From the NCBI GenBank assembly GCA_001914955.1, contig MNDM01000047.1, positions 1 to 57,326 of the forward strand: a DNA stretch of 57,326 bases, in the 5' to 3' direction. Each line of letters starts with the position of its first letter. The first letter of the stretch is position 1. The position numbers and the translations under genes were made by a program. Below, piece by piece: positions 1,891 through 42,532 of the stretch. The DNA comes from Nitrospirae bacterium 13_2_20CM_2_62_8 (GTDB lineage Bacteria; Nitrospirota; Nitrospiria; Nitrospirales; Nitrospiraceae). The notes beneath the pieces were generated by a model, which was not told where the DNA came from, did no database searches, and saw nothing but the letters and a program-made list of their open reading frames with translations.

Positions 1891-2646
1891 GTGACGCGCG
1901 AGGCCGGCATTCAGGAGGTCCGAACCAAGCTCTCGAACGCCCGTGCCGTCACCGTGCTCACGGGAGCCGGCATCTCCGCCGACAGCGGGGTACCAACCTT
2001 CCGTGGAACAGACGGCCTATGGCGGAACTTCCGGGCCGAGGACTTGGCCACACCGGAAGCGTTCGCGCGAGACCCTCGCCTGGTGTGGGAATGGTACAAC
2101 TGGCGGCGCGAGATCATCGCCGGGAAACTCCCTAATCCGGCGCATGCCGCGCTCGTCGAGATGGAACGGCGCTTTGATCGCTTCTGGCTGATCACGCAAA
2201 ACGTAGACGGCCTGCATCGCCTGGCAGGCTCGACGAAGTTGTCCGAGATTCACGGCAACATCTGGAAAGTGCGCTGCACGGTCTGCGGTCGGGTGGACAC
2301 GAACCACGCTGTGCCGATCCCCATCCTCCCCCTGTGCGCGGCCTGCCGAGGGCTCTTGCGCCCGCACATCGTCTGGTTCGGTGAATCCCTGGACTCGGAA
2401 GAGCTTGGCCGGAGCTTCGACGCGGTGAACTCCTGCGAGGTGATGCTGATCATCGGGACGTCAGGGATCGTCTACCCTGCTGCGTCGTTTGCACCTGGTG
2501 CGAAAGCGGCCGGCGCGTTTGTCGCCGAGATCAACCTTGATCCGACCCCCAATTCGGATGTGGTGGATCTCTGTATCCACGGGAAGGCGAAGGAGCTCGC
2601 GCTCATCCCCTTCCCCCGCCTCGCCTGTCCACACGAGTCAGTGTGA
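1891..2646 (+). CDS. cobB: NAD-dependent protein deacylase, sirtuin family
   Basis: Sirtuins remove acyl groups from lysines, consuming NAD and releasing nicotinamide and O-acyl-ADP-ribose. Visible motifs are TGAGISADSGVPTFRG, the catalytic TQNVDGLH and EIHGN, two CxxC zinc pairs (CTVCG and CAACR), and IIGTSGIVYPA near the C terminus. The segment WEWYNWRREI carries the Tyr-x-x-Arg pair that marks class III sirtuins such as E. coli CobB and SIRT5, so removal of succinyl or malonyl groups is plausible. I chose GTG 1891 because AGGAG lies five bases upstream; GTG 1885 is in frame but overlaps that site. The gene converges on the HAD hydrolase with only 3 bp between the stops. Confidence 0.93.
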   Translation: MTREAGIQEVRTKLSNARAVTVLTGAGISADSGVPTFRGTDGLWRNFRAEDLATPEAFARDPRLVWEWYNWRREIIAGKLPNPAHAALVEMERRFDRFWLITQNVDGLHRLAGSTKLSEIHGNIWKVRCTVCGRVDTNHAVPIPILPLCAACRGLLRPHIVWFGESLDSEELGRSFDAVNSCEVMLIIGTSGIVYPAASFAPGAKAAGAFVAEINLDPTPNSDVVDLCIHGKAKELALIPFPRLACPHESV

Positions 2647-2649
2647 CTA

Positions 2650-3384
2650 CTAGAGGGTAGCAACCAATTGAGGGAGTTCATTCAACGTGCGAATCGTAGG
2701 AACCTGCAACGCTGAGGGCTTGTGCTCGCCAGAATCCATGCGCTGGCGGTCGATGAGCACGCCGTGGAGCCGAGCCAGACGCGCCCCTTCCACATCGTCT
2801 CCTATGCTGTCCCCGACATGGACCGCCTCTTCCGGGTCAACCGCGTGCTTCTCCAGAGCCAGACGGAAGATCTGAGGGGCCGGTTTCGCAGCATGCGCCA
2901 AGCTCGAGATCGTGACTGTATCGAAGAGTTCGGCAATGCCGAGCCCTCGAAGCACGTTGAAAAGCCTGGTATCGAAGTTCGAGATAATCCCCAACTCCAG
3001 ACCGCGATCCTTGAGCTCTTTGAGCACACCCGACGTCTCTGGATACAGCGCCCAGTGCGCAGGTCCTCCGAAGGCGTGAAAGACCTCTTCGAAGTAATCA
3101 TCGAACCGATTGAACATCCCGACGCGGTAAAACACATTGTGCACGATGTCGAACCACCACAGCCGCTCACACCGTTTGATCTCGGTAGGGTCGCCGACGG
3201 CAAAGACCGGCGGCGGAGCCTCACGGAACGCACGCCGGAACGCGGCATTGAGAGCCGAAAGCGACTCGTCGGTGCGCCTGACCCCATATTTCTCGGCGTA
3301 GTGCAAATAGACCTCTCCCACCGACCCCTTCACATGAAACAAGGTCCCGGCTGCGTCCAAGAATATGACTTTCACCCGGCTCAC
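2650..3384 (-). CDS. HAD-superfamily hydrolase (HDHD3/haloacid dehalogenase-like)
   Basis: This 244-residue protein has the HAD motifs in order: FLDAAGTLF near residue 9, ISNFDT in the middle (motif II), the lysine in AAKPAPQIF (motif III) and VGDSIGDDVEGAR (motif IV). A helical cap lies between motifs I and II. Motif I is DxAGT, so the second aspartate of the usual DxD phosphatase motif is alanine, as in haloacid-dehalogenase-like members; a plain phosphatase role is therefore not certain. The start is a GTG with no strong ribosome-binding site, and GTG 3375 is possible. The substrate cannot be told from sequence. Confidence 0.85.
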   Translation of the reverse strand: MSRVKVIFLDAAGTLFHVKGSVGEVYLHYAEKYGVRRTDESLSALNAAFRRAFREAPPPVFAVGDPTEIKRCERLWWFDIVHNVFYRVGMFNRFDDYFEEVFHAFGGPAHWALYPETSGVLKELKDRGLELGIISNFDTRLFNVLRGLGIAELFDTVTISSLAHAAKPAPQIFRLALEKHAVDPEEAVHVGDSIGDDVEGARLARLHGVLIDRQRMDSGEHKPSALQVPTIRTLNELPQLVATL

Positions 3385-3478
3385 GATGCTGAGGATGTCT
3401 CGGGACAGACGTAATCGGACGGAGTGACGTCATCGGATGCGCGGCTGACTTTATCGAAATGATCGTTCCCTTGATGGC

Positions 3479-3589
3479 CTACCGTTTCGCTCGTTTCGTC
3501 CGCCTCGCCTTCTCCAGCGCTTTCAGACGCTGAATGTTTTTCCGGTGCTTCTTGCGCACGTTGCGGTCCTTGTCGCGTCCTCGTGCCAT
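3479..3589 (-). CDS. very small, strongly basic protein (36 aa)
   Basis: This is a short frame with ATG at 3589 and TAG at 3481-3479. The peptide begins MARGRDKDRNVRKKH and ends RRTKRAKR; more than 40 percent of its residues are Lys or Arg, with very few hydrophobic ones. AAGGAG stands about 12 bases upstream of the ATG, a little far but clear. The composition resembles small ribosome-associated or RNA-binding proteins, but I do not recognise a family. It lies in the 390-bp gap between the HAD gene and valS, which otherwise shows nothing I can support. It could be a chance frame in high-GC DNA; the ribosome-binding site and regular charge pattern are the reasons for listing it. Confidence 0.5.
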   Translation of the reverse strand: MARGRDKDRNVRKKHRKNIQRLKALEKARRTKRAKR

Positions 3590-3775
3590 GAGTCAACCCA
3601 TCTCCTTTCTGAAGCTCGCGTGCGATGCCGACAGCCGGCGCGATGTATAGCACAAGTTTGCGCCCCTGGACAAGCGCCGTTCCAGACTCGGCCTCACAGC
3701 ACCCGTCACCTTGTCGGGCAACGAGCAGCATGTTAAGATTCGTCACCGTTTTTCAACCCAGAGGAACCGTTGACG

Positions 3776-6523
3776 ATGCCTGGTCGGCAGCTAGAGAAAA
3801 TCTATGACCCCACGCAGGTCGAAGAACGGTGGTACCGGTTCTGGACCGAAAAGGGCTATTTTCATGCCACGGTAGATCGCCCGGGCGCCCCCTACTCGAT
3901 CGTCATCCCGCCTCCCAACATTACCGGCTCGCTTCATCTCGGCCATGCGCTGAACAATACCTTGCAGGACATTCTCATCCGTTGGCGGCGGATGCAAGGT
4001 CGTAATACCCTCTGGATGCCGGGCACTGATCATGCCGGCATCGCCACCCAGAACGTAGTCGAACGCCAACTCCTGGCGGAAGGAACATCACGGGAGGTGC
4101 TGGGCCGAGAGGCATTCGTCAAACGAGTCTGGGACTGGAAAGCTCAGTCCGGTGGATCCATTCTCCAGCAATTGAAACGGTTAGGAGCCTCCTGTGACTG
4201 GGATCGCCTTCGCTTCACCATGGATGAAGGACTGTCCCAGGCGGTCCGAGAGGTGTTCGTTCGTCTTCACGAGGACGGGTTGATCTACCGGGGCGAACGC
4301 TTGATCAATTGGTGCCCCCGCTGTCTCACCGCGCTGTCAGACATTGAAGTCGAGCACGAGGAAACCAAAGGCAAGCTCTATCATATCGAGTACCCGCTCG
4401 CCGATGACCCGAAAACCCGTCTCGTCGTCGCCACCACCAGGCCGGAAACCATGCTGGGCGACACCGCCGTCGCCGTCCATCCGGAAGACCCGCGTTACAA
4501 TCATCTGATCGGAAAGAAGGTGAGGCTGCCGTTAACGTCTCGCGACATTCCGATCATTGGTGATCCGATCCTGGTGGACCGGGAATTCGGCACGGGAGCC
4601 GTCAAGATCACCCCCGGGCATGACTTCAACGATTTCGAGGCAGGCGAGCGGCACAACTTGCCTCGAATAGCGATCCTGAACCAGCGGGCGCAAATGGATG
4701 CATCCGGGCTCCACGACGCTCAGGTAGATCCGAGCTTGAATCTCACACTCAAGCCGGTTCACCAAGCTCGGGCTCTCATGGTGGACGCCTTGCGCGAGCG
4801 GGGGTTCCTCGCGAAAGTCGAAGACCACAAGATGTCGCTCGGCAAGTGCTATCGGTGCAAGACCGTGGTTGAGCCCTACCTGTCACCGCAGTGGTTCGTC
4901 AAGATCAAGCCACTGGCTGAACCTGCGATCAAGGCAGTGGAGGATGGACGAATTCGTTTGATACCTGAAGGCTGGGTGAACAATTATCTTGGCTGGATGC
5001 GGGACATTAAGGATTGGTGTATCTCCCGACAAATCTGGTGGGGCCATCAGATACCGGCCTGGTACTGCCGGAGCTGCAACGAGGACGCCATCATTGAGGC
5101 GGCACCCAATTCATTCACGATGACCTCTGACGCGAAACCCGTCGTCGCGAGAACCGCGCCGGCTCATTGTCCCGACTGCAGCGCCAGCGACTTCATCCGG
5201 GATCCGGATGTCTTGGATACCTGGTTCTCCTCCGCCCTCTGGCCGTTCTCCACGCTTGGCTGGCCTGAGCAGACGCCGGAACTGAAGACGTACTACCCCA
5301 CCAGCACGTTGGTCACTGGCTTAGACATCCTCTTCTTCTGGGTAGCCCGCATGATCATGATGGGCCTCAAGTTCACAGGAAACGTCCCCTTCCGAGACGT
5401 ATACATCCATGCGCTAGTCCGTGACGCGGAAGGCCAGAAGATGAGCAAGTCCAAAGGCAATGTCATGGACCCGCTGAGCGTGATGGAGAAATACGGGACC
5501 GATGCGCTCCGGTTCACGCTCGCCGCCATGGCCTCGCCAGGCCGGGACGTCAAGCTGGCCGAGGAACGGATCGAAGGCTACCGAAACTTTGCCAATAAGA
5601 TCTGGAATGCGGCGCGATTCATTTTGATGAACCTCGACGGCCCGCGCGAAGCGGCCCCGCCGAAAGACCGTTCCTTTGCTGATCGCTGGATCCTCAGCCG
5701 CCTCAATCGGACGATCCGGGACGTCAACGCATCGCTCGAGGCGTATCGGTTCGACCAGGCCTCTAGCCAGATATACCACTTCATCTGGCATGAGTACTGC
5801 GACTGGTACCTGGAGCTGGTCAAGCCGTCTTTCCAAAGCAAGGACTCGGCTGACGCCAAGCGAACCAGGCAGACGCTGGTCGAATCTTTCGAAACTCTCC
5901 AACGGCTGCTCCATCCAGTGATGCCGTTCATCACCGAAGAAATCTGGCAGACCCTTCCCCACGAGGGAGACAGCCTCGTGATCCAGCGGTACCCCGTACC
6001 GATTCCGGAGTGGAACGCAAAAGATATCGAAGCGGAGTTTGCCGTACTTGAACAGTTCGTGACGACCGTGAGAACAGGGCGAGCTCAATTGAACTATCAA
6101 CCGGGGAAAGTCCTCGCTCTCTACGGTGCCACCTCGAGAGGGGAACAGCTCACAACGCTGCGTCATCTCCTTCCCTTTATCGAGCATCTCAGTCGAGGTT
6201 CTGTGAAACTGGCTGCCGTAGAAACATGGCCGACCGACAAAGTCCTTCGTCTGCCGGTCGAAGGAATGACAGTGGGATTGGTTGTCGAGGGCGAGGTGGA
6301 CTTGGAAAAGGTGCTTTCCAGACTCCAGAAACAGTCCGAAGAGAAGGAGCAGGAAATACAACGACTGGAAGCAAAGCTTCATAACGTGGAGTTCACGTCA
6401 AAAGCTCCCGCTGAAGTCATTCGCGAACATGGCGACCGCTTAAGGATCCTGCAACAGGACAGCAGATTACTCGTCGGCAGCGGACAGCAACTCCGTTCCA
6501 TGATGCAGTCGAGGAAAGAGTGA
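3776..6523 (+). CDS. valS: valyl-tRNA synthetase
   Basis: This class I aminoacyl-tRNA synthetase charges tRNA-Val with valine in the cytosol. The 915-residue length is normal. The HIGH signature is PPNITGSLHLGHALNN (HLGH at residues 54-57) and the KMSKS loop is EGQKMSKSKGNV near residue 555. Between them is the editing domain with TTRPETMLGDTAVAV. Cys-rich segments (CYRCK; CRSCNEDA and CPDCSASDF) may bind zinc. The last 70 residues form the charged coiled coil typical of ValRS. I start at ATG 3776, with GAGGA nine bases upstream, rather than the in-frame TTG at 3770. The stop overlaps the nadC start. Confidence 0.97.
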   Translation: MPGRQLEKIYDPTQVEERWYRFWTEKGYFHATVDRPGAPYSIVIPPPNITGSLHLGHALNNTLQDILIRWRRMQGRNTLWMPGTDHAGIATQNVVERQLLAEGTSREVLGREAFVKRVWDWKAQSGGSILQQLKRLGASCDWDRLRFTMDEGLSQAVREVFVRLHEDGLIYRGERLINWCPRCLTALSDIEVEHEETKGKLYHIEYPLADDPKTRLVVATTRPETMLGDTAVAVHPEDPRYNHLIGKKVRLPLTSRDIPIIGDPILVDREFGTGAVKITPGHDFNDFEAGERHNLPRIAILNQRAQMDASGLHDAQVDPSLNLTLKPVHQARALMVDALRERGFLAKVEDHKMSLGKCYRCKTVVEPYLSPQWFVKIKPLAEPAIKAVEDGRIRLIPEGWVNNYLGWMRDIKDWCISRQIWWGHQIPAWYCRSCNEDAIIEAAPNSFTMTSDAKPVVARTAPAHCPDCSASDFIRDPDVLDTWFSSALWPFSTLGWPEQTPELKTYYPTSTLVTGLDILFFWVARMIMMGLKFTGNVPFRDVYIHALVRDAEGQKMSKSKGNVMDPLSVMEKYGTDALRFTLAAMASPGRDVKLAEERIEGYRNFANKIWNAARFILMNLDGPREAAPPKDRSFADRWILSRLNRTIRDVNASLEAYRFDQASSQIYHFIWHEYCDWYLELVKPSFQSKDSADAKRTRQTLVESFETLQRLLHPVMPFITEEIWQTLPHEGDSLVIQRYPVPIPEWNAKDIEAEFAVLEQFVTTVRTGRAQLNYQPGKVLALYGATSRGEQLTTLRHLLPFIEHLSRGSVKLAAVETWPTDKVLRLPVEGMTVGLVVEGEVDLEKVLSRLQKQSEEKEQEIQRLEAKLHNVEFTSKAPAEVIREHGDRLRILQQDSRLLVGSGQQLRSMMQSRKE

Positions 6524-7389
6524 CGACACCCTCGTCCCAAACCATCCGCAAGGCAGTTCAGGTCGCGCTGGAGGAAGACCTCGGCCAGGGTGACGCAACC
6601 ACGGCAGCGCTCTTCCCCAAACCGGTGCCTGCGCGCGGGACCATCGTGGCACATGAAGCCATGACCGTCGCCGGCGTGGCTGCGGCCAGGCAGACGTTCC
6701 TCGCTGTGGATCGTTCGGTCAAAGTCGTTCGCACCGTTCGCGATGGCTTGACGATCGAGCGTGAAAGCCCGGTATTGATCGTGGAAGGAGACGCCCGCTC
6801 CCTGTTGATGGCGGAGCGGGTCTCGTTGAATTTCCTGCAACACCTGTCCGGGATCGCCACCCTCACCGCTCGGTTCTGCCAGGCTGTCCGGGGGTATCGC
6901 GTCAAGATCCTGGATACAAGAAAAACCACGCCAGGCCTCCGCGCCCTGGAAAAATGGGCGGTCCGCCTGGGCGGAGGGCGGAATCACCGGCACTCCCTCA
7001 GCGACGGGATCCTGATCAAAGAGAATCATCTTGCCCTGGCCGGTCATGACGTGGCCAGCGCTTGCAGACTGGCCCGGGAGGGGGCTGCGCACGGATTGAA
7101 AATCGAGGTTGAAGCTCAGACCCTCGATGAGGTGCGCGCGGCACTCGATGGTCAGGCCGATATTATTCTGCTGGACAATATGGACGTGCCGTCGATTCGC
7201 ACCGCTGTGGACCTCATCAAGGGTCGAGCCCTCGTCGAGGTGTCCGGCGGAGTCACGTTAGCCACTGTCCGAGAAATCGCAGCGGCTGGCCCCGACTTCA
7301 TTTCCATCGGCGCGCTCACCCACTCGGCGCCCGCGGCCAACTTGAGCATGGACATCCTCCCGCTCTCATCCCCCGGGAGGAGGCGGTGA
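6520..7389 (+). CDS. nadC: nicotinate-nucleotide pyrophosphorylase (quinolinate phosphoribosyltransferase)
   Basis: NadC converts quinolinate and PRPP to nicotinate mononucleotide, CO2 and pyrophosphate in de novo NAD synthesis. The 289 residues contain the N-terminal LEEDLGQGDATT, the segment LNFLQHLSGIATLT, the active-site stretch ILDTRKTTPGLR followed by RLGGGRNHRHSLSDGILIKENH, and the late IEVEAQTLDE and ILLDNM motifs. The GTG start overlaps the valS stop as GTGA, with GAGGAAA just upstream, so the two genes are probably translated together. birA follows after 4 bp. Confidence 0.96.
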   Translation: MTTPSSQTIRKAVQVALEEDLGQGDATTAALFPKPVPARGTIVAHEAMTVAGVAAARQTFLAVDRSVKVVRTVRDGLTIERESPVLIVEGDARSLLMAERVSLNFLQHLSGIATLTARFCQAVRGYRVKILDTRKTTPGLRALEKWAVRLGGGRNHRHSLSDGILIKENHLALAGHDVASACRLAREGAAHGLKIEVEAQTLDEVRAALDGQADIILLDNMDVPSIRTAVDLIKGRALVEVSGGVTLATVREIAAAGPDFISIGALTHSAPAANLSMDILPLSSPGRRR

Positions 7390-7393
7390 TCAC

Positions 7394-8239
7394 ATGACCG
7401 CTTCCGCCGCCTTCCAGGCCCTGACCGCTCAATCCGTCCAGCAGGCCCTTTCAACCAAAGCGTTCGGCCGGACGCTGCACCTGCTGGAAGGAACCTCCTC
7501 CACCAACACGGTTGCCATGACCTTGGGGCAGGAAGGAGCCTCACATGGCACCGTCGTCGTGGCGGAAACTCAGACCGCCGGACGAGGCCGATCCGGACGA
7601 CAGTGGTACTCCCCTCCTGGGAAGAATCTTTACTGCTCGGTGGTTCTTCGCTCGATGCCGTCCCCTGACCAGTTGGCGCTCTGGCTGTCTTGGATTCCTC
7701 TGATCGCGGGCCTCGCCGCAGTCCGCGCCGTTCAAACGACGGCTGCGCTCCATCCGTCCGTCAAATGGCCAAACGACATCCTGGTCGGAACACGGAAGCT
7801 CGGGGGCACTCTGTGCGAAAGTACGGGCCTCGGCTCGCCTCATCCGTTCGTCGTGGTCGGCATCGGCCTCAACGTCAATCTGCTTCGGCACGAGTTTCCG
7901 GACGACTTACGCGAGCTCGCCACGTCCATGGCGATCGAAGCGGATCGGCCCTTCGATCGCGCCGCCGTACTGGCCGCGCTGCTCCTGGAACTTGAAAGCC
8001 GGTGCGACGCATTTCTCGCGGGCCGACACAGAGACCTGTTGAACGAGTATGTGCTACGCTGTTCCACCGTGGGCAAGCAGGTCTGCATCGATCTGGCCCA
8101 TGGCGAGCGGGTGGAAGGCTATGCGGACTCGATCTCGCCCGATGGCTCACTCAGAGTCGTCCAGGGAGGCCGATCAAGCCGTCCGGGGGGCGGATCCACG
8201 GTCAACGTCCGCGCCGGAGATGTGACTCACGTGAGGTGA
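7394..8239 (+). CDS. birA: biotin--[acetyl-CoA-carboxylase] ligase
   Basis: This enzyme activates biotin as biotinyl-AMP and attaches it to the carrier lysine of biotin-dependent carboxylases. The catalytic signature GRGRSGRQWYSPPGKNLY lies near residue 62, followed by KWPNDILVGTRKLGGTLCES and VVGIGLNVN. A small C-terminal SH3-like domain follows. At 281 residues it lacks the DNA-binding winged helix of E. coli BirA, so it is a monofunctional (group I) ligase and not a repressor of biotin genes. A strong GGAGG precedes the ATG. It sits between nadC and coaX, giving a small cofactor group. Confidence 0.95.
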   Translation: MTASAAFQALTAQSVQQALSTKAFGRTLHLLEGTSSTNTVAMTLGQEGASHGTVVVAETQTAGRGRSGRQWYSPPGKNLYCSVVLRSMPSPDQLALWLSWIPLIAGLAAVRAVQTTAALHPSVKWPNDILVGTRKLGGTLCESTGLGSPHPFVVVGIGLNVNLLRHEFPDDLRELATSMAIEADRPFDRAAVLAALLLELESRCDAFLAGRHRDLLNEYVLRCSTVGKQVCIDLAHGERVEGYADSISPDGSLRVVQGGRSSRPGGGSTVNVRAGDVTHVR

Positions 8240-13690: not shown

Positions 13691-14431
13691 ATGCCGGTCT
13701 TCTTCATCACCGCGGACCACGTCCAAGACGACACTGTGAGGATCGAGGGTCCTCTACTCCATCATCTGCGGAGCAGTCTCCGTTGTCAGGTTGGGGAAGA
13801 GGTGTGGCTCGGGGACGAGGCGAAGCAGCGGTACCGCGTCCAGATCGTCGACATCAACCGTCGGGTGCTGAGCGGCCGAATCCTGCAACGGCAACGCATG
13901 CCCTCTCCCACCAGTCCGACTCTCACCATCGGACAGGCCTTGCTGAAGGGAGAACGCATGGATTGGGTCATACAGAAAGCGTCCGAGCTGGGCGCTGCGT
14001 CACTCATTCCGCTTGTTTCACGCCAGGTCATCGCGAGGCCCCCGGCGGATCGTCTCGTGCCCCAGCAGCAACGCTGGCAGCGCATCGCGCTCGAGGCGGC
14101 ACAGCAGGCCGAACGATGGGAGGTGCCGGTGGTGCACACGACGTGCGAAGCCACCGAGTTCTTTGCCGGGCAGCCCGTCCACACGGTCAGCTTGATCCTG
14201 ACTGAGCGTGGCGACGGGCGCAGCCTGGCCTCGGTCGCATTGCCGTCCGGCCCCGAGGGTCGTGTGGCGATCGCGGTGGGACCGGAGGGAGGCTGGACGA
14301 AGGAGGAACGAGGGAACGCCCTGCACTGCGGTTTTACGCCGGTCACGCTGGGGACGCGCATCCTGCGGGCCGAGACTGCGACAGTGGTGGCCCTGGCGAT
14401 CCTGCAGAGCCGGCTCGGGGAACTGGGCTAG
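13691..14431 (+). CDS. rsmE: 16S rRNA (uracil-1498-N3)-methyltransferase RsmE
   Basis: RsmE methylates U1498 of 16S rRNA in the assembled 30S subunit, using S-adenosylmethionine. It is a SPOUT-class enzyme with a C-terminal trefoil knot. The knot motifs are visible: AIAVGPEGGWTKEER and VTLGTRILRAETATVVALAI. The middle part has GERMDWVIQKASELGAASLI. The N-terminal PUA-like part has LLHHLRSSLRCQVGEEV. The length of 246 is normal. The link dnaJ-rsmE is common in bacteria and fits one operon here. Confidence 0.95.
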   Translation: MPVFFITADHVQDDTVRIEGPLLHHLRSSLRCQVGEEVWLGDEAKQRYRVQIVDINRRVLSGRILQRQRMPSPTSPTLTIGQALLKGERMDWVIQKASELGAASLIPLVSRQVIARPPADRLVPQQQRWQRIALEAAQQAERWEVPVVHTTCEATEFFAGQPVHTVSLILTERGDGRSLASVALPSGPEGRVAIAVGPEGGWTKEERGNALHCGFTPVTLGTRILRAETATVVALAILQSRLGELG

Positions 14432-14510: not shown

Positions 14511-15488
14511 TCACTTCGCTGTGATCCGCAGGATCACGCCACGTTCCCCGCTGGCCCATCCACGGGTCGGATCGGGAAATGTCAGGCCGAAGAGAGAGGC
14601 CTTCGTTCCATTTGGCTGCTCGACCCAGCTAAATCCAGCGTCGGTGGTACGAAAGATCGCGCCGCGCTCCCCGACGATCCAGCCTGATTTCGAGTCAGTA
14701 AAACGGACCTTGATGAGGTCGGTTGGCCGGGAACACGTCCGGGTACAGGCCAGCGTCCGATCGATCCAACGCGTCCCGCCATCCATCGTCTGAAACAGGG
14801 CGCCGGCATTTCCAACCACCCATCCGTTGAGCGGATCGGTAAAGGACACGTCGAAAAAGGTGGCGGCACTCTGCGTGTCCTGAGCGATCCACGTGAGTCC
14901 TCCGTCTTCAGTCGCAAGGATCGTCCCCAACGCCCCAACGGCCCGTCCGTGCGTCTGATCCACGAAATGGATGGCGTACAGGGCGGCGTTGGTGCCGCTG
15001 ATCTGGTCCGTCCAATGAAGTCCTCCGTCCTTCGTGTGCAAGATATTCCCTCCCGCGCCGACCGCCCACCCCAGCGAGGGAGTCAAGAAGGAGAGGCCAT
15101 ACAGCGCCGATTGCGTCCCGCTCGACTGCGCCACCCATTTCTCGCCGCCATCTGTGGAGTGCAGAATGGTGCCGTCTGCTCCGACCACCCAGCCATGCGA
15201 TGCGTCGGCAAACGACACATTGGTCAGCAGGACGGTGGTCCCGCTCGACACCGGCCGCCACCGCTTGCCGCCATCGGAGGTTCTCAGGATCGCGCCGCCG
15301 GCCCCGACGGCCCAGCCAACGCCGACGTTTTGGAAATAGACACTGAGGAGGGTCACCTCTGTCCCGCTTTTTTGCAGGGCCGCGATGGAGCGGAACTCCG
15401 CCGCGCTGAGCGACTGTTCAGAGACGAGGGCGAGCAGGGTCCACGTCGCCATCCAGATTGCCCCTCGCGTCAAAGACCGGGACCGCAT
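14511..15488 (-). CDS. exported YCF48/BNR-repeat beta-propeller protein
   Basis: After a signal peptide (MRSRSLTRGAIWMATW...) the protein consists of about six repeats of 42 residues with the pattern GWxVGxxGxILxTxDGGxxW, for example GWAVGAGGAILRTSDGGKRW. This is the YCF48/HCF136-like or BNR propeller, a structural scaffold in photosystem assembly factors and many secreted proteins. The start at 15488 (325 residues) is supported by GAGGAGGGG just upstream; longer in-frame starts would run into the neighbouring gene. It is the last gene of the minus-strand run. Its role is unknown; a binding or assembly function outside the cytoplasm is inference. Confidence 0.8.
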   Translation of the reverse strand: MRSRSLTRGAIWMATWTLLALVSEQSLSAAEFRSIAALQKSGTEVTLLSVYFQNVGVGWAVGAGGAILRTSDGGKRWRPVSSGTTVLLTNVSFADASHGWVVGADGTILHSTDGGEKWVAQSSGTQSALYGLSFLTPSLGWAVGAGGNILHTKDGGLHWTDQISGTNAALYAIHFVDQTHGRAVGALGTILATEDGGLTWIAQDTQSAATFFDVSFTDPLNGWVVGNAGALFQTMDGGTRWIDRTLACTRTCSRPTDLIKVRFTDSKSGWIVGERGAIFRTTDAGFSWVEQPNGTKASLFGLTFPDPTRGWASGERGVILRITAK

Positions 15489-15501
15489 GGACAGCCCCTC
15501 C

Positions 15502-17157
15502 TCAGTCCCGACCCGGTCCCGGATCGTTGTAATACCCCTGATCAGGGAGCCCTTTGGGTTGGATGGTGAACTCTCCGGCCACCACACTGACCCATCGTTT
15601 GGGTGTGCAACAACTGCCGTCCGGCAGCAGATCCCATGATCCCCGACGCACGACGAGAGGTCCCTTGCTCAGATCAGGGAAAAATTGTTCATGGATGCCC
15701 GTTCCAAATAAGGCTCGTCGCGGCACACGCACCTTGATCTCCGTGTCGTTCCAGGACACCACCATACCGGCTACGCCGTTGAAGAGGACTTCGCTGCGGG
15801 CGATATCTTCACCGAGTTTAGTCGGGAGGAAGTCGTGTCCTGCCTCGTTCAGACCGGATTGCGTCGCTTCCGCGGTCTTGAGAAAGTCGCCGAAATGAGC
15901 GCCTGTGATCGTCACGATCTCATCGAGCCCCGCGGCAGTCGGCGAATAGGACTCGACCGTCGGTGTGGTGATCTCGAACGTACCAGCCACCACAGACACG
16001 ACCCCGCGTTCGGCACAACACGAGCCGTCCGGTTTTGGTTTGGTGCCCCCTCGCCGGATCACGACCTGCCCATTCTTGACGCTAAACGGCACCCAGACAT
16101 CGATCTTGTCGTCATGCCAGCGGTAGACAATGGCCGGCACGCCCCCGATAGTGACTCCGTTATCACCCTTGTTAAAGTCGATGAATGAGAACGGGGTTGA
16201 GCCGCTTTCCGAATAGAAGCCAAAGTTCTCCCCCGTGATCCGCACCAGCGTCCCAATTGGCGCCCGCGTCGGCGAGAGGCCGGTTGCTACCGGAGCGACC
16301 ACCGTAAAGGTCCCCAGGGAGCGCTCCGTCTCTCCACGCTTGAGCACGAGCGGGCCGCTGCTCGCGTCCAACGGCACATGCACGACGACCTCCTTATCGG
16401 TCCACTGGGCGACCGTGGCCGGTTGCCCGTGAAACAGAACGGCATCCCCGGGCGCCTTGCCCGGGCCGAAGCCGTTCCCGAACAACACCACCTTCGTTCC
16501 AACCGGCCCTCGCGCCGGATCAACACGGATGGAAGGCAACAGCTTGAGCGGTACGGCATTGCTGACGCTGTATTCAACCGGTCTGCAGCAGGACCCGTCG
16601 GGCAACGGGTCCGAGGACGCCAGCCGAACGATGACGTCGCCTGATGCCGCGTTGCCCGGGATCTCCACTTCGATCTTGTCGTCGCGCCAGCGCCGAATTC
16701 GAGCCGGCACGCCGCTGATCAGGACGTCATTGACTCCGAACATGGTGTTCGGATCCTTGGAGCCGGCTGTATTCCCGAAATGCGCGCCCGTGATCTGGAG
16801 CAACGCTCCGTGTTCCGCTTCTGCCGGCGCGACCGCCTGGATCGTCGGTCGCTGCACCGAAAAGCTTCCGACCGCGATCCTCTTCTTGCCCCTGATGACC
16901 TCGACCGGGCCGCTGGTAGCCCGGAGCGGGACTTTGACCTCGAGGAGGTCGGGTTCCCATCGCTGGATCAGGGCCGGTGAGCCGTTAAACAGAACGCGGT
17001 TGTCCTGGGTGGTCTTAAACTGCCCGAATCCCTTTCCCGAAATCGTCACGGTCGCTCCGGGGGGAGCGGCCTCAGGAAACACGCCGGGATCGGCCCAGAC
17101 AGGTGAGAACCAACCGGCTGCCGGAAACCCGAGGCAAACGAGGATGGCCCACCACAT
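15502..17157 (-). CDS. exported protein of five IPT/TIG domains
   Basis: A signal peptide (MWWAILVCLGFPAAGWFS...) is followed by five IPT/TIG immunoglobulin-like domains of 80-130 residues. Each has a strand pattern such as GATVTISGKGFG, then VLFNG, then an SGPVEVIRG-like end. The motif PDGSCC appears three times, at the ends of domains 2, 4 and 5, always before a short hydrophobic strand; paired cysteines in an exported protein suggest disulfides or metal binding. The 17157 start has CAGGAG eight bases upstream. A longer frame to ATG 17208 directly abuts the stop of the HEAT gene but has no better site. The function is not known; the genes on both sides are also exported repeat proteins. Confidence 0.75.
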   Translation of the reverse strand: MWWAILVCLGFPAAGWFSPVWADPGVFPEAAPPGATVTISGKGFGQFKTTQDNRVLFNGSPALIQRWEPDLLEVKVPLRATSGPVEVIRGKKRIAVGSFSVQRPTIQAVAPAEAEHGALLQITGAHFGNTAGSKDPNTMFGVNDVLISGVPARIRRWRDDKIEVEIPGNAASGDVIVRLASSDPLPDGSCCRPVEYSVSNAVPLKLLPSIRVDPARGPVGTKVVLFGNGFGPGKAPGDAVLFHGQPATVAQWTDKEVVVHVPLDASSGPLVLKRGETERSLGTFTVVAPVATGLSPTRAPIGTLVRITGENFGFYSESGSTPFSFIDFNKGDNGVTIGGVPAIVYRWHDDKIDVWVPFSVKNGQVVIRRGGTKPKPDGSCCAERGVVSVVAGTFEITTPTVESYSPTAAGLDEIVTITGAHFGDFLKTAEATQSGLNEAGHDFLPTKLGEDIARSEVLFNGVAGMVVSWNDTEIKVRVPRRALFGTGIHEQFFPDLSKGPLVVRRGSWDLLPDGSCCTPKRWVSVVAGEFTIQPKGLPDQGYYNDPGPGRD

Positions 17158-17208
17158 CGTTGAATCTCCTGAGTGCTTGACCATGGGATCGCGCCCTGGG
17201 CGTCGCAT

Positions 17209-18105
17209 CTAGAAGCCTGGAGGGGACGCCAACGCCGCCTTCGCGGCTGCCCGCACCTCATGGTCTGAGTCCTTCTCTGCCAGGCGCTCGAACGCAGACA
17301 AGGACTTGACTTCACGCATTGATTGCAGGGCGCGTACAGAAGCGAGCCGCACGCCGGGGTCAGGATGCTCAAGGAGCGTGACCAACACCGGGACTGCCCT
17401 CGGGTCCTGAAGCCGACCAAGCTCGTGGATCGTTTTTTCGCGCGCCAGCCTCGTGTAGTGACTCTCGAATGTGGGAAGGGTCGACTCGGCGGCTGGCAAC
17501 TGATCACCAAGTGGCGACATGAGTATTGATTGATCCTTCGCCTCGATCCGCTCCAACCCCTCGATCAGCGCGCCGGTCATGTCGAGACGAGAGACGACAT
17601 GCCCCCTGATAATGTCCCCAAGAAAATAAAAGTACGGGTTGGTTTCAAGCCTCTGAAGTACCTGTAAATAGGGCGCATTGCCCATCTCATTCAGGCCGGA
17701 GGATTCACGGATCGTCAGACGGAGGAGTTGGCCCTCGGTCGGATGTTCAAGGCTGGCCACAAGGCTGATATCAGTCGCGTAGAGATCGATGCGGAATTGG
17801 CTTCCTCGTTCCTCTCTATACTCGACCTTGAGGGTGAGATCATGCGGATCAGTCTGGTTCTGGACGACGGCAAACCCTGCTGATTGCAGTTTCATCCTCA
17901 CTGAAGGGACAACCTGGAAGGAGACCCGACCACGTGACCTCCAGGTTGAAGACGTGGCATCCACATACACAGTGGTGGCTCGGTCCACCAGCTGACGCTC
18001 CGCACCACCCACCATTTGTTCCTCGGCCGGCGCCACCGGAGGCCTCATCACCAGGCACAGCACGAACAAGGAAAACAGACCCCCGAACCAGGCCGCGACG
18101 AACAT
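17209..18105 (-). CDS. exported HEAT-repeat protein, paralogue B
   Basis: The 298-residue protein has an N-terminal signal or membrane segment (AAWFGGLFSLFVLCLV), a central domain of unknown type and a C-terminal HEAT-like repeat pair (IHELGRLQDPRAVPVLVTLL then VRLASVRALQSM). The central domain contains TTVYVDATSSTWRSRGRV, VVQNQTDPHDLTLKVEYREE and NPYFYFLGDIIRGHVVSR. It is clearly paralogous to the next gene upstream. I start at ATG 18105 (GGTGG just upstream); a GTG at 18144 is in frame. It lies first of three tightly packed genes (HEAT-B, IPT, YCF48). The function is unknown. Confidence 0.72.
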   Translation of the reverse strand: MFVAAWFGGLFSLFVLCLVMRPPVAPAEEQMVGGAERQLVDRATTVYVDATSSTWRSRGRVSFQVVPSVRMKLQSAGFAVVQNQTDPHDLTLKVEYREERGSQFRIDLYATDISLVASLEHPTEGQLLRLTIRESSGLNEMGNAPYLQVLQRLETNPYFYFLGDIIRGHVVSRLDMTGALIEGLERIEAKDQSILMSPLGDQLPAAESTLPTFESHYTRLAREKTIHELGRLQDPRAVPVLVTLLEHPDPGVRLASVRALQSMREVKSLSAFERLAEKDSDHEVRAAAKAALASPPGF

Positions 18106-18209
18106 CTTCCACCATCCTTTCTCTGGCAGGCCACGTCGAACCACTCGCCCGAGGCAACCCCTATTCTACGGAGGCCGCCGGTGCAAATTCTACAGCCTTA
18201 TAACCGGGT

Positions 18210-19130
18210 TCAACAAGGCCCAGGCGGGGCACACGTCATCTGGGAGGAGGGTGGCAGGCCAGCCAGGGCCGCGGCAGCGGCCTGTCGGACTTCTCGGTCT
18301 CTATCCTGTCGGGCCACGCGTTCAATGGCGGAACGGGAGTCGACCGCGGAGATCGATGTCAGAGCTCGCACCGAAAGGAGTCGTACGCGTCGTTCGGAAT
18401 GACCCAGGAGTTTGGTTAAGATTGGCACTGCTCGGGGATCCTTGAGTCGGCCAAGCTCCTGAATCACGTTCTCGCGGGCGGAGGCGAAAAACATCACCTC
18501 ATCCGACGACATCAAAAATTCGCCTTTCAAGGGGTCGCTTTTCATGGGCTCATGCGCCGCTAATCGCTGCAGCCCCTCAATCAAAGCGCCGGTCGTGTCC
18601 GAGCGGGACACAACCCTTCCCTTGACCAGGTCCCCCAGTAAATAGAAATAGGGATTGGCGACGAATTTTTCGAGCGCTTCCAGGTAGGGCGGTGTCCCGG
18701 TCTCGGGGAATGTGGATGATTCCTCGATCCTCAGGTTAAGGAGCGGCCCCATCCCGGCATGCTCGAGCTGGACCGCGCAGGTGATGTCGGTGCCGTATGT
18801 GTCGATCCGGTACTGTCTGCCCTGCTCTTCTCGGTACAAGACTTTCAACGTGAGATCGTGCCGATCGGTCTGATTCCGCACCACGGTGAAGCCTGCTGCG
18901 GTCAGCTTCGTTCTCAGAGATGGCCCCACATCTGAGAGGGTTCGGCCCCGACGCATCCACGTCGTGGCGGCGACGTCCACATAGATGGTCTTGGCGCGAC
19001 TGAGTAGCTGAAGCTGCTCATCGGTCAGGATCGGTTCGGCTGCCGGCACCACCGGGGCGCCGGAGAGAAGGCAGGCCACCGTCATACAAGACAGTAGGGA
19101 TATTGTGAGGGCGCGTTGTCGTCCTCCCAT
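18210..19130 (-). CDS. exported HEAT-repeat protein, paralogue A
   Basis: This protein matches paralogue B along its whole length. It has a signal peptide (ALTISLLSCMTVACLLSG), the shared domain (KTIYVDVAATTWMRRGRTLS, VVRNQTDRHDLTLKVLYREE, NPYFYLLGDLVKGRVVSRSD) and C-terminal HEAT-type helices (IQELGRLKDPRAVPILTKLL). GGGGAGG stands at good distance before ATG 19130, giving 306 residues. The tandem pair is an old duplication, as only about half the residues agree. HEAT repeats bind proteins, so a scaffold role in the periplasm is a fair guess and nothing more. Confidence 0.72.
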   Translation of the reverse strand: MGGRQRALTISLLSCMTVACLLSGAPVVPAAEPILTDEQLQLLSRAKTIYVDVAATTWMRRGRTLSDVGPSLRTKLTAAGFTVVRNQTDRHDLTLKVLYREEQGRQYRIDTYGTDITCAVQLEHAGMGPLLNLRIEESSTFPETGTPPYLEALEKFVANPYFYLLGDLVKGRVVSRSDTTGALIEGLQRLAAHEPMKSDPLKGEFLMSSDEVMFFASARENVIQELGRLKDPRAVPILTKLLGHSERRVRLLSVRALTSISAVDSRSAIERVARQDRDREVRQAAAAALAGLPPSSQMTCAPPGPC

Positions 19131-19167: not shown

Positions 19168-19626
19168 CTAGGAGACCTGCACAATGAGCTCCAGCTCAAC
19201 CGGCGAGTTTAGCGGCAGTTGGACCGAGCCAACGGCGACACGCGCGTGACGGCCTGCCTCACCAAAAATGCTCACCAGCAGGTCGGAGGCCCCGTTGATG
19301 ACGGCAGGTTGCTGCACGAATCCCTCCGCTGACGCCACATGTCCCACCAGGCGGACGATTCGCTTCACACGATCCAGGGTACCCAGTTCAGTGCGCACGA
19401 TGGACAGTGCATTCAGGAGCGCGATGTGCGCCGCCTCATAGCCCTGCTCCACCGTCAGGTCCCTTCCCAGCTTCCCCTCCATCGTCAGCTTTCCGTTACG
19501 GAACGGGATCACGCCGCTCAGAAACAGTAAGTCGCCAGCCTGGACTGCCGGGACATAGGTCGCCACCGGTTTGGGGGGCGCCGGCAACTCGATGCCGAGT
19601 TCTCTCAGCCTGCCCTCAAACGACAT
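19168..19626 (-). CDS. RidA/YjgF family protein
   Basis: RidA-type proteins hydrolyse reactive enamine/imine intermediates released by PLP enzymes; many relatives have other small-molecule roles. The 152 residues contain AGDLLFLSGVIPFRNGKL and the C-terminal ARVAVGSVQLPLNSPVELE. In true RidA the late motif is RxAVxVxxLPxxxxVEIE, and here the arginine of that motif is present (ARVAVG). The protein has an N-terminal extension with LGIELPAPPKPVATYVPA, as in the YjgH/Rv3718c-like subgroup. It lies 35 bp after deoB, so cotranscription is likely. Confidence 0.88.
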   Translation of the reverse strand: MSFEGRLRELGIELPAPPKPVATYVPAVQAGDLLFLSGVIPFRNGKLTMEGKLGRDLTVEQGYEAAHIALLNALSIVRTELGTLDRVKRIVRLVGHVASAEGFVQQPAVINGASDLLVSIFGEAGRHARVAVGSVQLPLNSPVELELIVQVS

Positions 19627-20949: not shown

Positions 20950-23397
20950 TTATTGGGCCGTCTTGACCGACTCATCGACCTGGTTGAGCAGGACCTCATC
21001 GGTGACCACCTCATAAAAGGAATTCGTGGTTGGTTTGCCGAAGTTGGGCTCCTGCAGATCCAGGAGGCGCATGCTCCCTTCCCGGATCACCAACCGCTGC
21101 ATGGTACCCTTGAGATCGGGATACCGACCCGTGTGCAGAATGGCGGGATGGTCGTCACCAGGTGCTGGAAGCTCCAGCCGTTGCAAGGTGATTTCAGACT
21201 GGAGTTTGACGAACCCCGCGGGGTCAAGCTCGATTCCGTTGACATTGTAACGCAGATGGGTCTCCCCTTTCTCACCGCGGAGGGGATCGCCGTCGGGAAG
21301 TTCATAGACCTCGACGTTCGTGGCCATATTATTGCGCTGGCTCCGTTGCTTTCGGAGGAGCCAGGAACACGAAGAGAGCCGGTCTGCCTTCCCGATTGCC
21401 GATGAAATCATGATCGGAGAATCGCCGTCGTAGAGGAAGGCCGGCGCCTCATCCCCGAACGCGAGCCCGATGCCCAGTTCCAGCTCCGGGAGCCCGCCCT
21501 TTCTGCACAGACTGTTCTGAGCGTGCAGGACGCTCAAGAGCCTTTTTGCCAGGCCGCAGGCGCGCGCCACACACAGCCGATGCTCCTGAGTTTCTTGATA
21601 TTCAAAGAGGCTGAGGATCACCGCGTCACCTTCGATAAACACCTTGCTGGCGCCATAGGTCTCGAGCAGGGCGTGGATGGGATCAAAGAGGTTCTGGCTG
21701 AAATGGGACGCAGGGTTCAGATTACGTTTCCGGAGCTCGGCGACCACAGTCGTAGACCCGCGCACGTCGGCTTTCAGGATGACGTGGTTCAGGATTGTTT
21801 GCGTGACCGCTTCCTCCTCCTGCGGGGCGAGGAATTCATACAGGGTCTTGTTGGTCTGTGACAGGCGGACATCCTTCGGGTCCTCCAGCACATGGAGGAG
21901 ATTCATCGCATCCTGAGCGAGGTGGTAATAGCTCAGATCGCGCCGACAGGTCAGGAAGTCCTTTAAGAAACGGACCAGATACTCCCGTCGTTGCCGGCGG
22001 GGAGTGCTTGCGGTTCGAACCGCCGCCTTGATCAACGGCTCGGCGGGCCAGGTTTTGCCGCTGAGATGCCCCATCTCTTGAAGCCTCTCCACGATGTCTT
22101 TCTTGCTGATGTTGCCACGCAGCAACTGATGGAGCTGTTGCGCCGTGAGTATCGAGGAATAGTCGCGCTGTGTGGGCAGCAATTCGTAGGCGGCGATGAT
22201 CGGGGTCAGCAATCCCGCGTCGACGAAGGCCCGTTCGGCGTGATCCAGTAACGATCGTTGGAATCGGATCTGTGCTTTCAGCGTCGAGACCCGTTCGCGG
22301 TCCTTCTCCTTCCGCACCACGCGAAGTTGTTCCGTCGCGAGGAATACGTCGAACAGCGTGGTCACATTTGCCGGGACGTCCGCCCAGGCGTAATTGGCCT
22401 TCAGGTATTCCGCCCGGATGGCGTCCAGCTCAGCCGTGGCCTTGCTGATCTCGCCTTCTAGCCCCTCCTTGCGCGTCTCCAGCGAGGCAATGGCGGAACT
22501 CGCACTGGCACGCGCTCGTTTTTTCCTGATACGCTCGAGTTCAGTCGCGAGCCGTCCGGAAACCTGTTCCGCCCGTGTCAGGGCCATCTCGGTCTGGTCA
22601 TCCGAGCGACGTTGTCTGAACAGATACGCAAGGAACCTGTCAATCGCGGCAAAACTATAGGCATCATCCTGGTCCTGACCCAGTAAGACGTAATGGGTCG
22701 TCATGACCTCGTCGTCAAACGGGGTCTCTGCTTGAAGTAAGGGATTACACAACGCCTCCTGCGGGACGGGCCATCGATCATCCAGGAGGGATTGGCGCAA
22801 ATCGCCCAACTGGCCTGACTCGACCTTGGCCAGTTGGTCGAATAACTGGCGGTTCATTCGATATCGAATCCGGGCCCGATTCCGTGCGAACCAGCTCATG
22901 CGTTCGTTGTGCTCAAGCTTGCGACTGTCAACCGCCGAACCGCCGGAGGATGCGGAGGCGCGTAACCCTTGCCGCATGAGCTCTATCTCACCCTGGACGT
23001 ATTGCAACAGGAATGCCATCACAGCGAATTGGACCAGGGGCACGAGGGTAAAGGACCCGGTCACCTTGTCACGATGAACAGCGCCCTCAACCATACGGGC
23101 GTAGCTTGTCCTGAATTGTTCCCAATCCCCGCTGGTTGGGCCGGGAGATTTCTGACCTGGACGACCCTGGTTGGCATGCTGCTCCATCATGCTGGTGATG
23201 ATGCGTGTCGCGTGGCCCACGAACTGTGGGCTGAGGCGAACATCAAAATGGATGTTGTCAATCCCCTTGGTGAGGCCGGCAAAGCTAAAGTTGAGCGGGA
23301 CGGCGCGCTGGAGCGGCACGACTGAGTCGGACGGCGAGAGCAGTCCGCGTAGTGCGCGGACAACCCTGCGGAGCATATTTGGGACGAAGGTTAGCAC
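20950..23397 (-). CDS. large protein with a C-terminal nucleotidyl-cyclase-like domain
   Basis: I do not recognise the whole 815-residue protein. Residues 265-335 are charged, with heptads typical of coiled coil. Residues 535-700 look like a class III adenylate/guanylate cyclase domain: KADVRGSTTVV with a possible metal Asp at 544, KVFIEGDAVILSLFE with Asp 591, and GIGLAFGDEAPAFLYDGDS followed by AIGKADRLSS, matching the usual order of motifs. The substrate-selecting residues are not conserved enough to call, so it may be a degenerate sensor domain. The N-terminal 250 residues have a short hydrophobic stretch (LVQFAVMAFLLQYVQ) but no convincing membrane anchor. The start is a GTG; ATG 23376 is possible. 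It sits between deoB and mltG. Confidence 0.6.
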   Translation of the reverse strand: MLTFVPNMLRRVVRALRGLLSPSDSVVPLQRAVPLNFSFAGLTKGIDNIHFDVRLSPQFVGHATRIITSMMEQHANQGRPGQKSPGPTSGDWEQFRTSYARMVEGAVHRDKVTGSFTLVPLVQFAVMAFLLQYVQGEIELMRQGLRASASSGGSAVDSRKLEHNERMSWFARNRARIRYRMNRQLFDQLAKVESGQLGDLRQSLLDDRWPVPQEALCNPLLQAETPFDDEVMTTHYVLLGQDQDDAYSFAAIDRFLAYLFRQRRSDDQTEMALTRAEQVSGRLATELERIRKKRARASASSAIASLETRKEGLEGEISKATAELDAIRAEYLKANYAWADVPANVTTLFDVFLATEQLRVVRKEKDRERVSTLKAQIRFQRSLLDHAERAFVDAGLLTPIIAAYELLPTQRDYSSILTAQQLHQLLRGNISKKDIVERLQEMGHLSGKTWPAEPLIKAAVRTASTPRRQRREYLVRFLKDFLTCRRDLSYYHLAQDAMNLLHVLEDPKDVRLSQTNKTLYEFLAPQEEEAVTQTILNHVILKADVRGSTTVVAELRKRNLNPASHFSQNLFDPIHALLETYGASKVFIEGDAVILSLFEYQETQEHRLCVARACGLAKRLLSVLHAQNSLCRKGGLPELELGIGLAFGDEAPAFLYDGDSPIMISSAIGKADRLSSCSWLLRKQRSQRNNMATNVEVYELPDGDPLRGEKGETHLRYNVNGIELDPAGFVKLQSEITLQRLELPAPGDDHPAILHTGRYPDLKGTMQRLVIREGSMRLLDLQEPNFGKPTTNSFYEVVTDEVLLNQVDESVKTAQ

Positions 23398-40683: not shown

Positions 40684-42480
40684 TTAGAAAAAGATCTGCA
40701 TCTGGACGCGCAGGATATTGTCAATCAGCGTGCCTCCCTTCGCGTCCAACGGCACGCAGCCGGAAGGCCACATGGCCGTGTTGTTGCAATTCGTGCCAGC
40801 CTGCGAGCCATTGACCGTATTTGGCAACGGGTTGCTTCGGCCGATCGCATAGCCGCCGGTTCCCATCGCCACATTCGAGTAGGTGATCATGAACTGATAA
40901 TCGTAGGTTCCGAACGGGAACCAGTTGATCGAGACATCGGCCTCCTTGATGAGATCGCCGGAAGCATTGGTGTCCGGGTCCCAGTAGGCATAACGGGCCG
41001 CGACTTCGAGGTGGCGGGGAATGAAATAGTAGCCGGATTGGACGTACCATCCGGTGGCGTTTCCAAGCAGGCCCCCAGCAAAACCCGTGCAAGGGCCTCC
41101 TGTCCCGTTCGTCTGGACGCAAGGCAGCCCCTTCTCATGTCGGTTGATGTTCTTGAAGTAGTACTCTCCCTGGAGCGAGAAGCCACGATATTTGAGAACG
41201 CTATCTAATCCCCAGGTGGTGTAATCCACGATCCCCCATCCGAGCTGGCGCGCGTTTCCGAAGGTCGCCAGTTGCCGGCGCCAGTTCAGATTCGCGAGAT
41301 CAATGCCAACGAAGGCGTTGTCAGTGCTCGTGTTGATCCCGGGGTTATAGGCAATATTGCCGGCCACAGCCACTTGCGGCGTTTCCGAATAGACCAAGTC
41401 CCCTTCGCCGTAGCCAGGCCGTCCCGTCACGTTCCACTGGATCCGGCTCGTGTACATGAGTTGGTTGATCCAATTGCCTCGAAAGTCCGCATTCAGGTTG
41501 CGCTGATTCCCAGGACAGCCGGCCGGGGACGGAAAGGGATTCCCGCTGGTCTGCCCGCCGGGACAGTCCTGGTTCGGCTCTTTGCTCTCAAAAGACCCGT
41601 AGTCGGTGAAGAGAGGGCCACCGCCGTTGAAGATCCCGAAGTAATAGTTGACGGGATAAACTTCGTCATCGTTCATGATCGTCACGCCGATATCGCGCCG
41701 GTTCACCCCGTTGGCCGTAAAGGCATCCGAGACGAGGGAGCGCTCGGCGAATTGCATGGCGGCCGTATTGTTGATCTGAGTTCGGTTGAAATAGACCTTG
41801 TACTGGCCAGCCTGGACGTTAAAGAGCGGGAAGTGGGTGCTGGTGAAGTAGTAGTCCAGCAGATTGACCGATCCCGGCGTTTGCGCGTTTTCAGCTGTTT
41901 CCATGCCGAGCTGGAGGAAGTACTTAAAATCCGGGTTGATCAGATGCCCCAAGAACAGCAACCGTGCGCGCCGCAGGTTGAATTGGGAGCTTTCACCGAC
42001 CGAGCGGTTTGCGCGATAGTCACCGAACACGCCGAGGAGTTCCGGGAAATTCTTGGCATCACCGGGATTTCCCCAGGCATTATTCCGCCACCTCGTTGTT
42101 TCCCGTAATTGCAACCGGCCGCGGATTTTCAGAAAAAACGCATTGTCGTTCATCGAGAAGTTGAAGCCACGGTCGTACCAGACCTTGAACGGGAGCTGAG
42201 TCTGGTAGCGGTAGGTCTCCGATTCCTTGAGGGCCTGCTCAAACTCCTCCTTGCTAATGATTCCCTTCTGAAGAGCCCGCTCCAAGAGAAGACGCAACGC
42301 TGGGTCCTGGCTCTCGATAAAGACGTACTTGCCGTCCTTCTCGACCAGCTTCCCCGATTCGGCTGCAGGAGCGTTCATTGGGGCAGCAAGCATCCCTATG
42401 CCAGTGGCCGCCAGGATAATTGCACTTACCCGCCAGACTTTGATGGGACGCGTATGAATTAATTGATGCCAGATGTTCAT
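40684..42480 (-). CDS. large outer-membrane porin (phosphate-selective porin O/P-like)
   Basis: The 598-residue protein has a signal peptide (VSAIILAATGIGMLAAPM...), a helical segment (about residues 45-85, ALRLLLERALQKGIISKEEF) and a long beta-barrel with strands such as FFLKIRGRLQLRETTRW, FKYFLQLGME and FNVQAGQYKVYFNR. It ends QMQIFF with the C-terminal Phe that the BAM machinery recognises. The layout matches OprO/OprP-type porins, which pass anions; an anion channel inside a mod cluster fits molybdate entry. ATG 42480 has GGAGG at proper spacing. Loops carry several Cys-Pro-Gly stretches. Confidence 0.82.
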   Translation of the reverse strand: MNIWHQLIHTRPIKVWRVSAIILAATGIGMLAAPMNAPAAESGKLVEKDGKYVFIESQDPALRLLLERALQKGIISKEEFEQALKESETYRYQTQLPFKVWYDRGFNFSMNDNAFFLKIRGRLQLRETTRWRNNAWGNPGDAKNFPELLGVFGDYRANRSVGESSQFNLRRARLLFLGHLINPDFKYFLQLGMETAENAQTPGSVNLLDYYFTSTHFPLFNVQAGQYKVYFNRTQINNTAAMQFAERSLVSDAFTANGVNRRDIGVTIMNDDEVYPVNYYFGIFNGGGPLFTDYGSFESKEPNQDCPGGQTSGNPFPSPAGCPGNQRNLNADFRGNWINQLMYTSRIQWNVTGRPGYGEGDLVYSETPQVAVAGNIAYNPGINTSTDNAFVGIDLANLNWRRQLATFGNARQLGWGIVDYTTWGLDSVLKYRGFSLQGEYYFKNINRHEKGLPCVQTNGTGGPCTGFAGGLLGNATGWYVQSGYYFIPRHLEVAARYAYWDPDTNASGDLIKEADVSINWFPFGTYDYQFMITYSNVAMGTGGYAIGRSNPLPNTVNGSQAGTNCNNTAMWPSGCVPLDAKGGTLIDNILRVQMQIFF

Positions 42481-42532
42481 GGCCGCCTCCACAGATGAGA
42501 ACGAATGAAATACTGATCATGAGCGGTCGTTC

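Follow-up and report, generated by a model that had tools for sequence, protein, structure and literature searches.

Our analysis of a gene locus from a Nitrospirales genome identified two exported proteins, a five-domain IPT/TIG protein (TIG) and a YCF48-like β-propeller (YCF48), as its core. The constant unit within the order is this pair and not the run of four genes in which it was found, and the two genes very probably form a co-expressed envelope unit. The pair is apparently undescribed and combines known folds with one unusual structural element, a hairpin carrying two adjacent cysteines that is repeated on three domains of the TIG protein. As the original prediction had supposed, no description of the set was found in the literature searched, which also yielded no paper on fusions of LptE with HEAT or on the TIG and YCF48 proteins of Nitrospira.

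Gene organization of the locus

The window, meaning the whole stretch of DNA analysed (57,326 nucleotides), is contig 11 of a draft Nitrospirales genome of 2.0 Mb that is 73% complete. Open reading frame calls placed four genes on its minus strand, and Pfam matches (HEAT_2, TIG, PSII_BNR) gave them the folds that had been claimed: HEATa (18210-19130, from an ATG start within a longer ORF reaching 19199), HEATb (17209-18144), TIG (15502-17208), and YCF48 (14511-15488, from an ATG start within a longer ORF reaching 15587). HEATa and HEATb are separated by 65 bp, HEATb and TIG by 0 bp, and TIG and YCF48 by 13 bp, so that the reported packing of three genes within 15 bp holds for HEATb, TIG, and YCF48. 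Each of the four proteins begins with a hydrophobic stretch followed by an Ala-x-Ala-type site, in line with the signal peptides expected for all of them; these predicted signal sequences were recognized by eye, hydropathy, and cleavage-site pattern, without a trained predictor.

Upstream of HEATa, the minus-strand run continues with a RidA/YjgF family gene (ridA, 19168-19626), syntenic in nearly all loci, followed by a phosphopentomutase-like gene, a gene encoding a protein of 815 aa, mltG, ruvX, and alaS. On the other side, locus comparison identified rsmE (13691-14431, plus strand) as a conserved neighbour lying beside dnaJ, dnaK, and grpE, all convergent to the four-gene run. The 815-aa protein (20950-23397, minus strand) had no family match above the cut-off, and its C-terminal part resembles, by eye, a nucleotide cyclase; its gene is syntenic in several f1 genera and was not seen in others. 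Elsewhere in the window, a minus-strand gene (40684-42492) encodes a 602-aa protein with a weak match to the porin ExtI of a selenite/tellurite reduction operon. A scan for promoters and terminators gave results at chance level.

TIG and YCF48 form a constant pair across the Nitrospirales

Among 197 sampled Nitrospirales genomes, a TIG match was found in 185 and a YCF48 match in 183, and all 12 genomes without a TIG match were also without YCF48. Both genes could be placed in 134 genomes; in 132 of these they are adjacent on the same strand, and in the other two they lie on different contigs. In most loci YCF48 starts no more than about 16 bases from the TIG stop, and in several lineages its start codon overlaps the TIG stop codon. 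The absence of both genes from family f4 is real, as one member (G033) has different genes beyond rsmE, and other genes also occupy the expected position in genome G132. Apparent absences of TIG or YCF48 in three further genomes (G020, G045, and G169) were found to be contig ends, and in G078 the seemingly missing YCF48 gene lies past a large insertion, at the end of its contig. At this last locus (L142, G078:C16:403500-423000), the insertion separates rsmE from YCF48 and holds very large ORFs of 3260 and 2323 aa, whose products look like large repeat or secreted proteins.

The neighbourhood, for which the original prediction had proposed a survey, is conserved well outside this genome. The block alaS-ruvX-mltG-ridA-(HEAT)-TIG-YCF48, facing rsmE-dnaJ-dnaK-grpE, recurs in loci of some thirty genera in the order. 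Local variations were observed. In L106 (G028:C81:18000-36000), incomplete copies of the 5' portion of dnaK stand in tandem at positions 2064-5001, which may be an assembly artefact, and in L087 of a g6 genome (G071:C1:361000-379000), two extra small genes, one apparently encoding a lipoprotein, lie between ridA and TIG (6494-7793).

Since synteny across the order extends to the whole chromosomal block from alaS to birA, adjacency is weaker evidence than it appears. RidA, mltG, ruvX, alaS, rsmE, and dnaJ are nearly as syntenic, and the genes might therefore encode unrelated exported proteins without a shared function, having stayed neighbours because the dnaK-alaS block rearranges slowly. We consider this improbable, given that TIG and YCF48 are present and absent jointly, including their joint absence in f4, that the pair stays together while HEAT moves, and that stop and start codons overlap in several lineages. 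The presence of an outer membrane was rejected as the cause of the pair's distribution, because LptD was detected in 21 of 22 genomes, both with and without the pair.

About ten genomes encode a second full TIG gene. As no YCF48 gene adjoins either of two such copies, in L103 (G060:C6:3325000-3343000) and L114 (G054:C21:51000-69000), TIG may also function without the propeller. Both copies adjoin a gene that, judging from the beginning of its sequence, is Sua5/YrdC-like. Outside the Nitrospirales, no full-length TIG protein was found in the phylum sample, where matches were partial, and a plasmid search returned nothing beyond generic TIG proteins, from Hymenobacter and Persicobacter.

HEAT proteins are patchy accessories

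The two HEAT proteins of the window are paralogous, as had been proposed, with 51% identity over 276 aa that include a shared N-terminal domain. Both match HEAT_2 (61 and 49.5 bits, gathering score 27.7), as do all 24 members collected, and both have the same layout, which in HEATb consists of an alpha/beta domain at about residues 54-202 followed by C-terminal HEAT repeats. The AlphaFold model of HEATb has a mean pLDDT of 86.7, with values mostly above 90 in the N-terminal domain, and Foldseek searches of the PDB with this domain retrieved LptE, DUF330, CsgG, PelC, and FlgT structures (E 8e-5 to about 5e-3, probability about 1.0, TM by target about 0.3-0.5). The shared domain, which the original prediction had called unknown, is thus predicted to adopt an LptE/PelC/CsgG/DUF330-like periplasmic fold. 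Neither the 24 HEAT members nor PDB sequences gave a sequence match to LptE, PelC, CsgG, or DUF330, so this is a fold assignment and not family membership. A lipobox-like site (LLSC) was seen in only one of the 24 proteins, HEATa of the window. A role of the HEAT protein as a stand-in for LptE is unlikely, as a separate LptE-family gene occurs in 5 of 8 genomes tested, though not in G003.

The distribution of the HEAT genes differs from that of the pair. Several f1 and several f3 genera have one HEAT gene between ridA and TIG; in g2, g12, g13, g15, and g16, HEAT is located apart from TIG, and most genomes of the large Nitrospira-like genera lack it. It is doubled only in the window genome and in genus g22 (G187/NS_7; L034 and L099). 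A scan of genome contigs with HEATb yielded only four loci, all in Nitrospirae or Nitrospira records. Between HEAT and TIG, the f3 genus g24 has one or two genes whose predicted products are β-barrel proteins ending, as we read their sequences, in Phe.

A single envelope complex built from all four gene products, HEAT included, would agree with the contiguity of all four genes in the window and in G187/NS_7, and with the loci of f1 and f3 in which one HEAT gene adjoins the pair. Against it stand the loci in which HEAT lies apart from TIG, the persistence of the TIG-YCF48 pair without HEAT, and the detection of the HEAT N-terminal domain in 26 of 296 phylum genomes as compared with 105 for TIG (at different thresholds); we judge such a complex very unlikely. 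Of the envelope module originally put forward, the exported binding folds and the neighbourhood kept beyond this genome are retained; its unity as a module of four genes is not, as HEAT is mostly missing or elsewhere and rarely doubled. The HEAT genes are a patchy accessory and not part of the core.

Three invariant cysteine pairs in the TIG protein

The TIG protein matched Pfam TIG in five stretches (113 bits against a gathering score of 20.9, E 6e-33). Its AlphaFold model has a pLDDT of 80.8 and a pTM of 0.61, so that the arrangement of the five domains is moderately confident, and Foldseek matched it to the IPT rods of plexin and MET, S-layer proteins, and a xyloglucan-binding protein (5e7g). 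The domain alignment revealed that domains 2, 4, and 5 carry an additional hairpin between their last strands, typically with the motif [PA]DG[ST]CC, whereas domains 1 and 3 are without it. The cysteine pairs are residues 207/208, 397/398, and 533/534. Computed from residue numbers, the codons of the three PDGSCC motifs (residues 203-208, 393-398, and 529-534) occupy positions 16585-16602, 16015-16032, and 15607-15624 of the minus strand, respectively.

All six cysteines are invariant in 43 of 43 loci and also in alignment A2, and in 26 TIG ORFs they are the sole cysteines of the mature part. The alignment contains no invariant His or Met, and DGSCC hairpins were not found in the distant TIG relatives inspected (partial matches elsewhere in the phylum). 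In an exported protein, such adjacent cysteines would most simply form vicinal disulfides.

The YCF48-like propeller

The YCF48 protein matched Pfam PSII_BNR (PF14870) with 165 bits (gathering score 27, E 3e-48). Six complete repeats were predicted correctly from the outset, and a partial seventh had been overlooked; six full repeats and a partial one fit a seven-bladed propeller closed by its ends. A CxxxC loop follows the fifth repeat in 83% of 41 loci. This loop is missing in family f2, where the CC pairs of TIG are retained.

The six invariant paired cysteines and the frequent CxxxC loop would be compatible with a periplasmic metal or thiol-redox device, in which the vicinal cysteines of TIG and the CxxxC of the propeller coordinate a soft metal such as copper or take part in disulfide exchange. 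This is an unlikely explanation, as the CC pairs remain in f2 while CxxxC is lost, the pairs sit on separate domains of a rod, and TIG is without an invariant His or Met.

The original prediction had drawn on photosystem II as an analogy and suggested that the set perhaps assembles a respiratory enzyme; to our knowledge, photosystem II itself is not to be expected in Nitrospirales. The propeller could, for example, hold an immature subunit of a periplasmic or membrane respiratory enzyme, with TIG and HEAT as scaffold. Family membership at the Pfam level, the fact that the best sequence matches among solved structures are Ycf48 proteins, and the near-universal single-copy presence of the pair, even in genomes of 1.3-1.8 Mb, speak for such a role. 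The protein nevertheless reached only 150 bits with the NCBIfam Ycf48 equivalog (NF010237), far under its cut-off of 326. An Arg patch of Ycf48 that binds D1 has been described (PMC10403576), and in the window protein residues other than Arg stand at the four readable Arg positions of 5ojr (SSRG, HNRTTSRR); the assignment of patch residues is our own reading of the alignment, whose register is less certain owing to internal repeats. The respiratory markers likewise did not track the pair: COX1 was present in 9 of 22 genomes, unrelated to TIG and YCF48, and for the type-II DMSO-reductase-family marker TIGR03479, found in 23 of 38, no clear relation emerged, the latter being a weak test, as the single-contig genome G071 was also without a match. 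The conserved neighbourhood contains no respiratory gene. Taken together, these results make a respiratory assembly factor quite improbable.

Discussion

Our findings suggest a two-gene operon whose products, a TIG rod and a seven-bladed propeller of the YCF48 type, both exported, would work jointly, either in the periplasm or at the cell surface. We infer that each CC pair forms a vicinal disulfide in the oxidising envelope and thereby creates a rigid hydrophobic patch, and that the propeller interacts with the TIG rod as a fixed partner that caps or docks it. The three patches might then bind a repetitive ligand, for which an envelope or capsule glycan would be the most likely candidate, or a surface protein. 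Where present, HEAT could serve as an optional periplasmic adaptor that combines a HEAT arm with an LptE/PelC-like domain. The proposal of a binding scaffold that works through vicinal disulfides is offered tentatively. TIG and propeller folds bind many things, and a glycan as the ligand of the TIG rod is a rather doubtful proposal.

A large share of global nitrite oxidation is due to Nitrospira and its relatives, whose envelope has been little studied. A near-universal exported pair, found in our sample only in the Nitrospirales, provides a handle on the distinctiveness of this order, and the repeated double-cysteine loop is a precise target for structural and ligand work. The conservation of TIG and YCF48 is more general than a single window could show. 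In its widest form, the proposal would be that the Nitrospirales, nitrite oxidisers included, share an undescribed, order-defining envelope structure of TIG rod and propeller, and that ligands are bound there by a new element, the DGSCC hairpin, which is formed by a vicinal disulfide and repeated on three domains of one chain; as a whole, we hold this to be somewhat doubtful.

Several known systems resemble parts of this unit. Ycf48/HCF136 proteins (PF14870) are exported and built from the same seven-bladed propeller repeat as the YCF48-like protein, which differs from them in falling under the equivalog cut-off, in being without the Arg patch at the aligned positions, and in always being paired with a TIG protein in the Nitrospirales. 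The N-terminal domain of the HEAT proteins has its predicted fold in common with LptE, PelC, CsgG, and DUF330 (PqiC-like) domains, but the HEAT proteins are without sequence matches to them, mostly lack a lipobox, and are fused to HEAT repeats. Plexin and MET ectodomains and SGBP-type xyloglucan-binding proteins arrange tandem TIG domains as a rod, as TIG does here; in contrast to these IPT/TIG surface proteins, the TIG protein described here is limited to the Nitrospirales in our sample and has the DGSCC hairpin inserted in three of its domains (2, 4, and 5).
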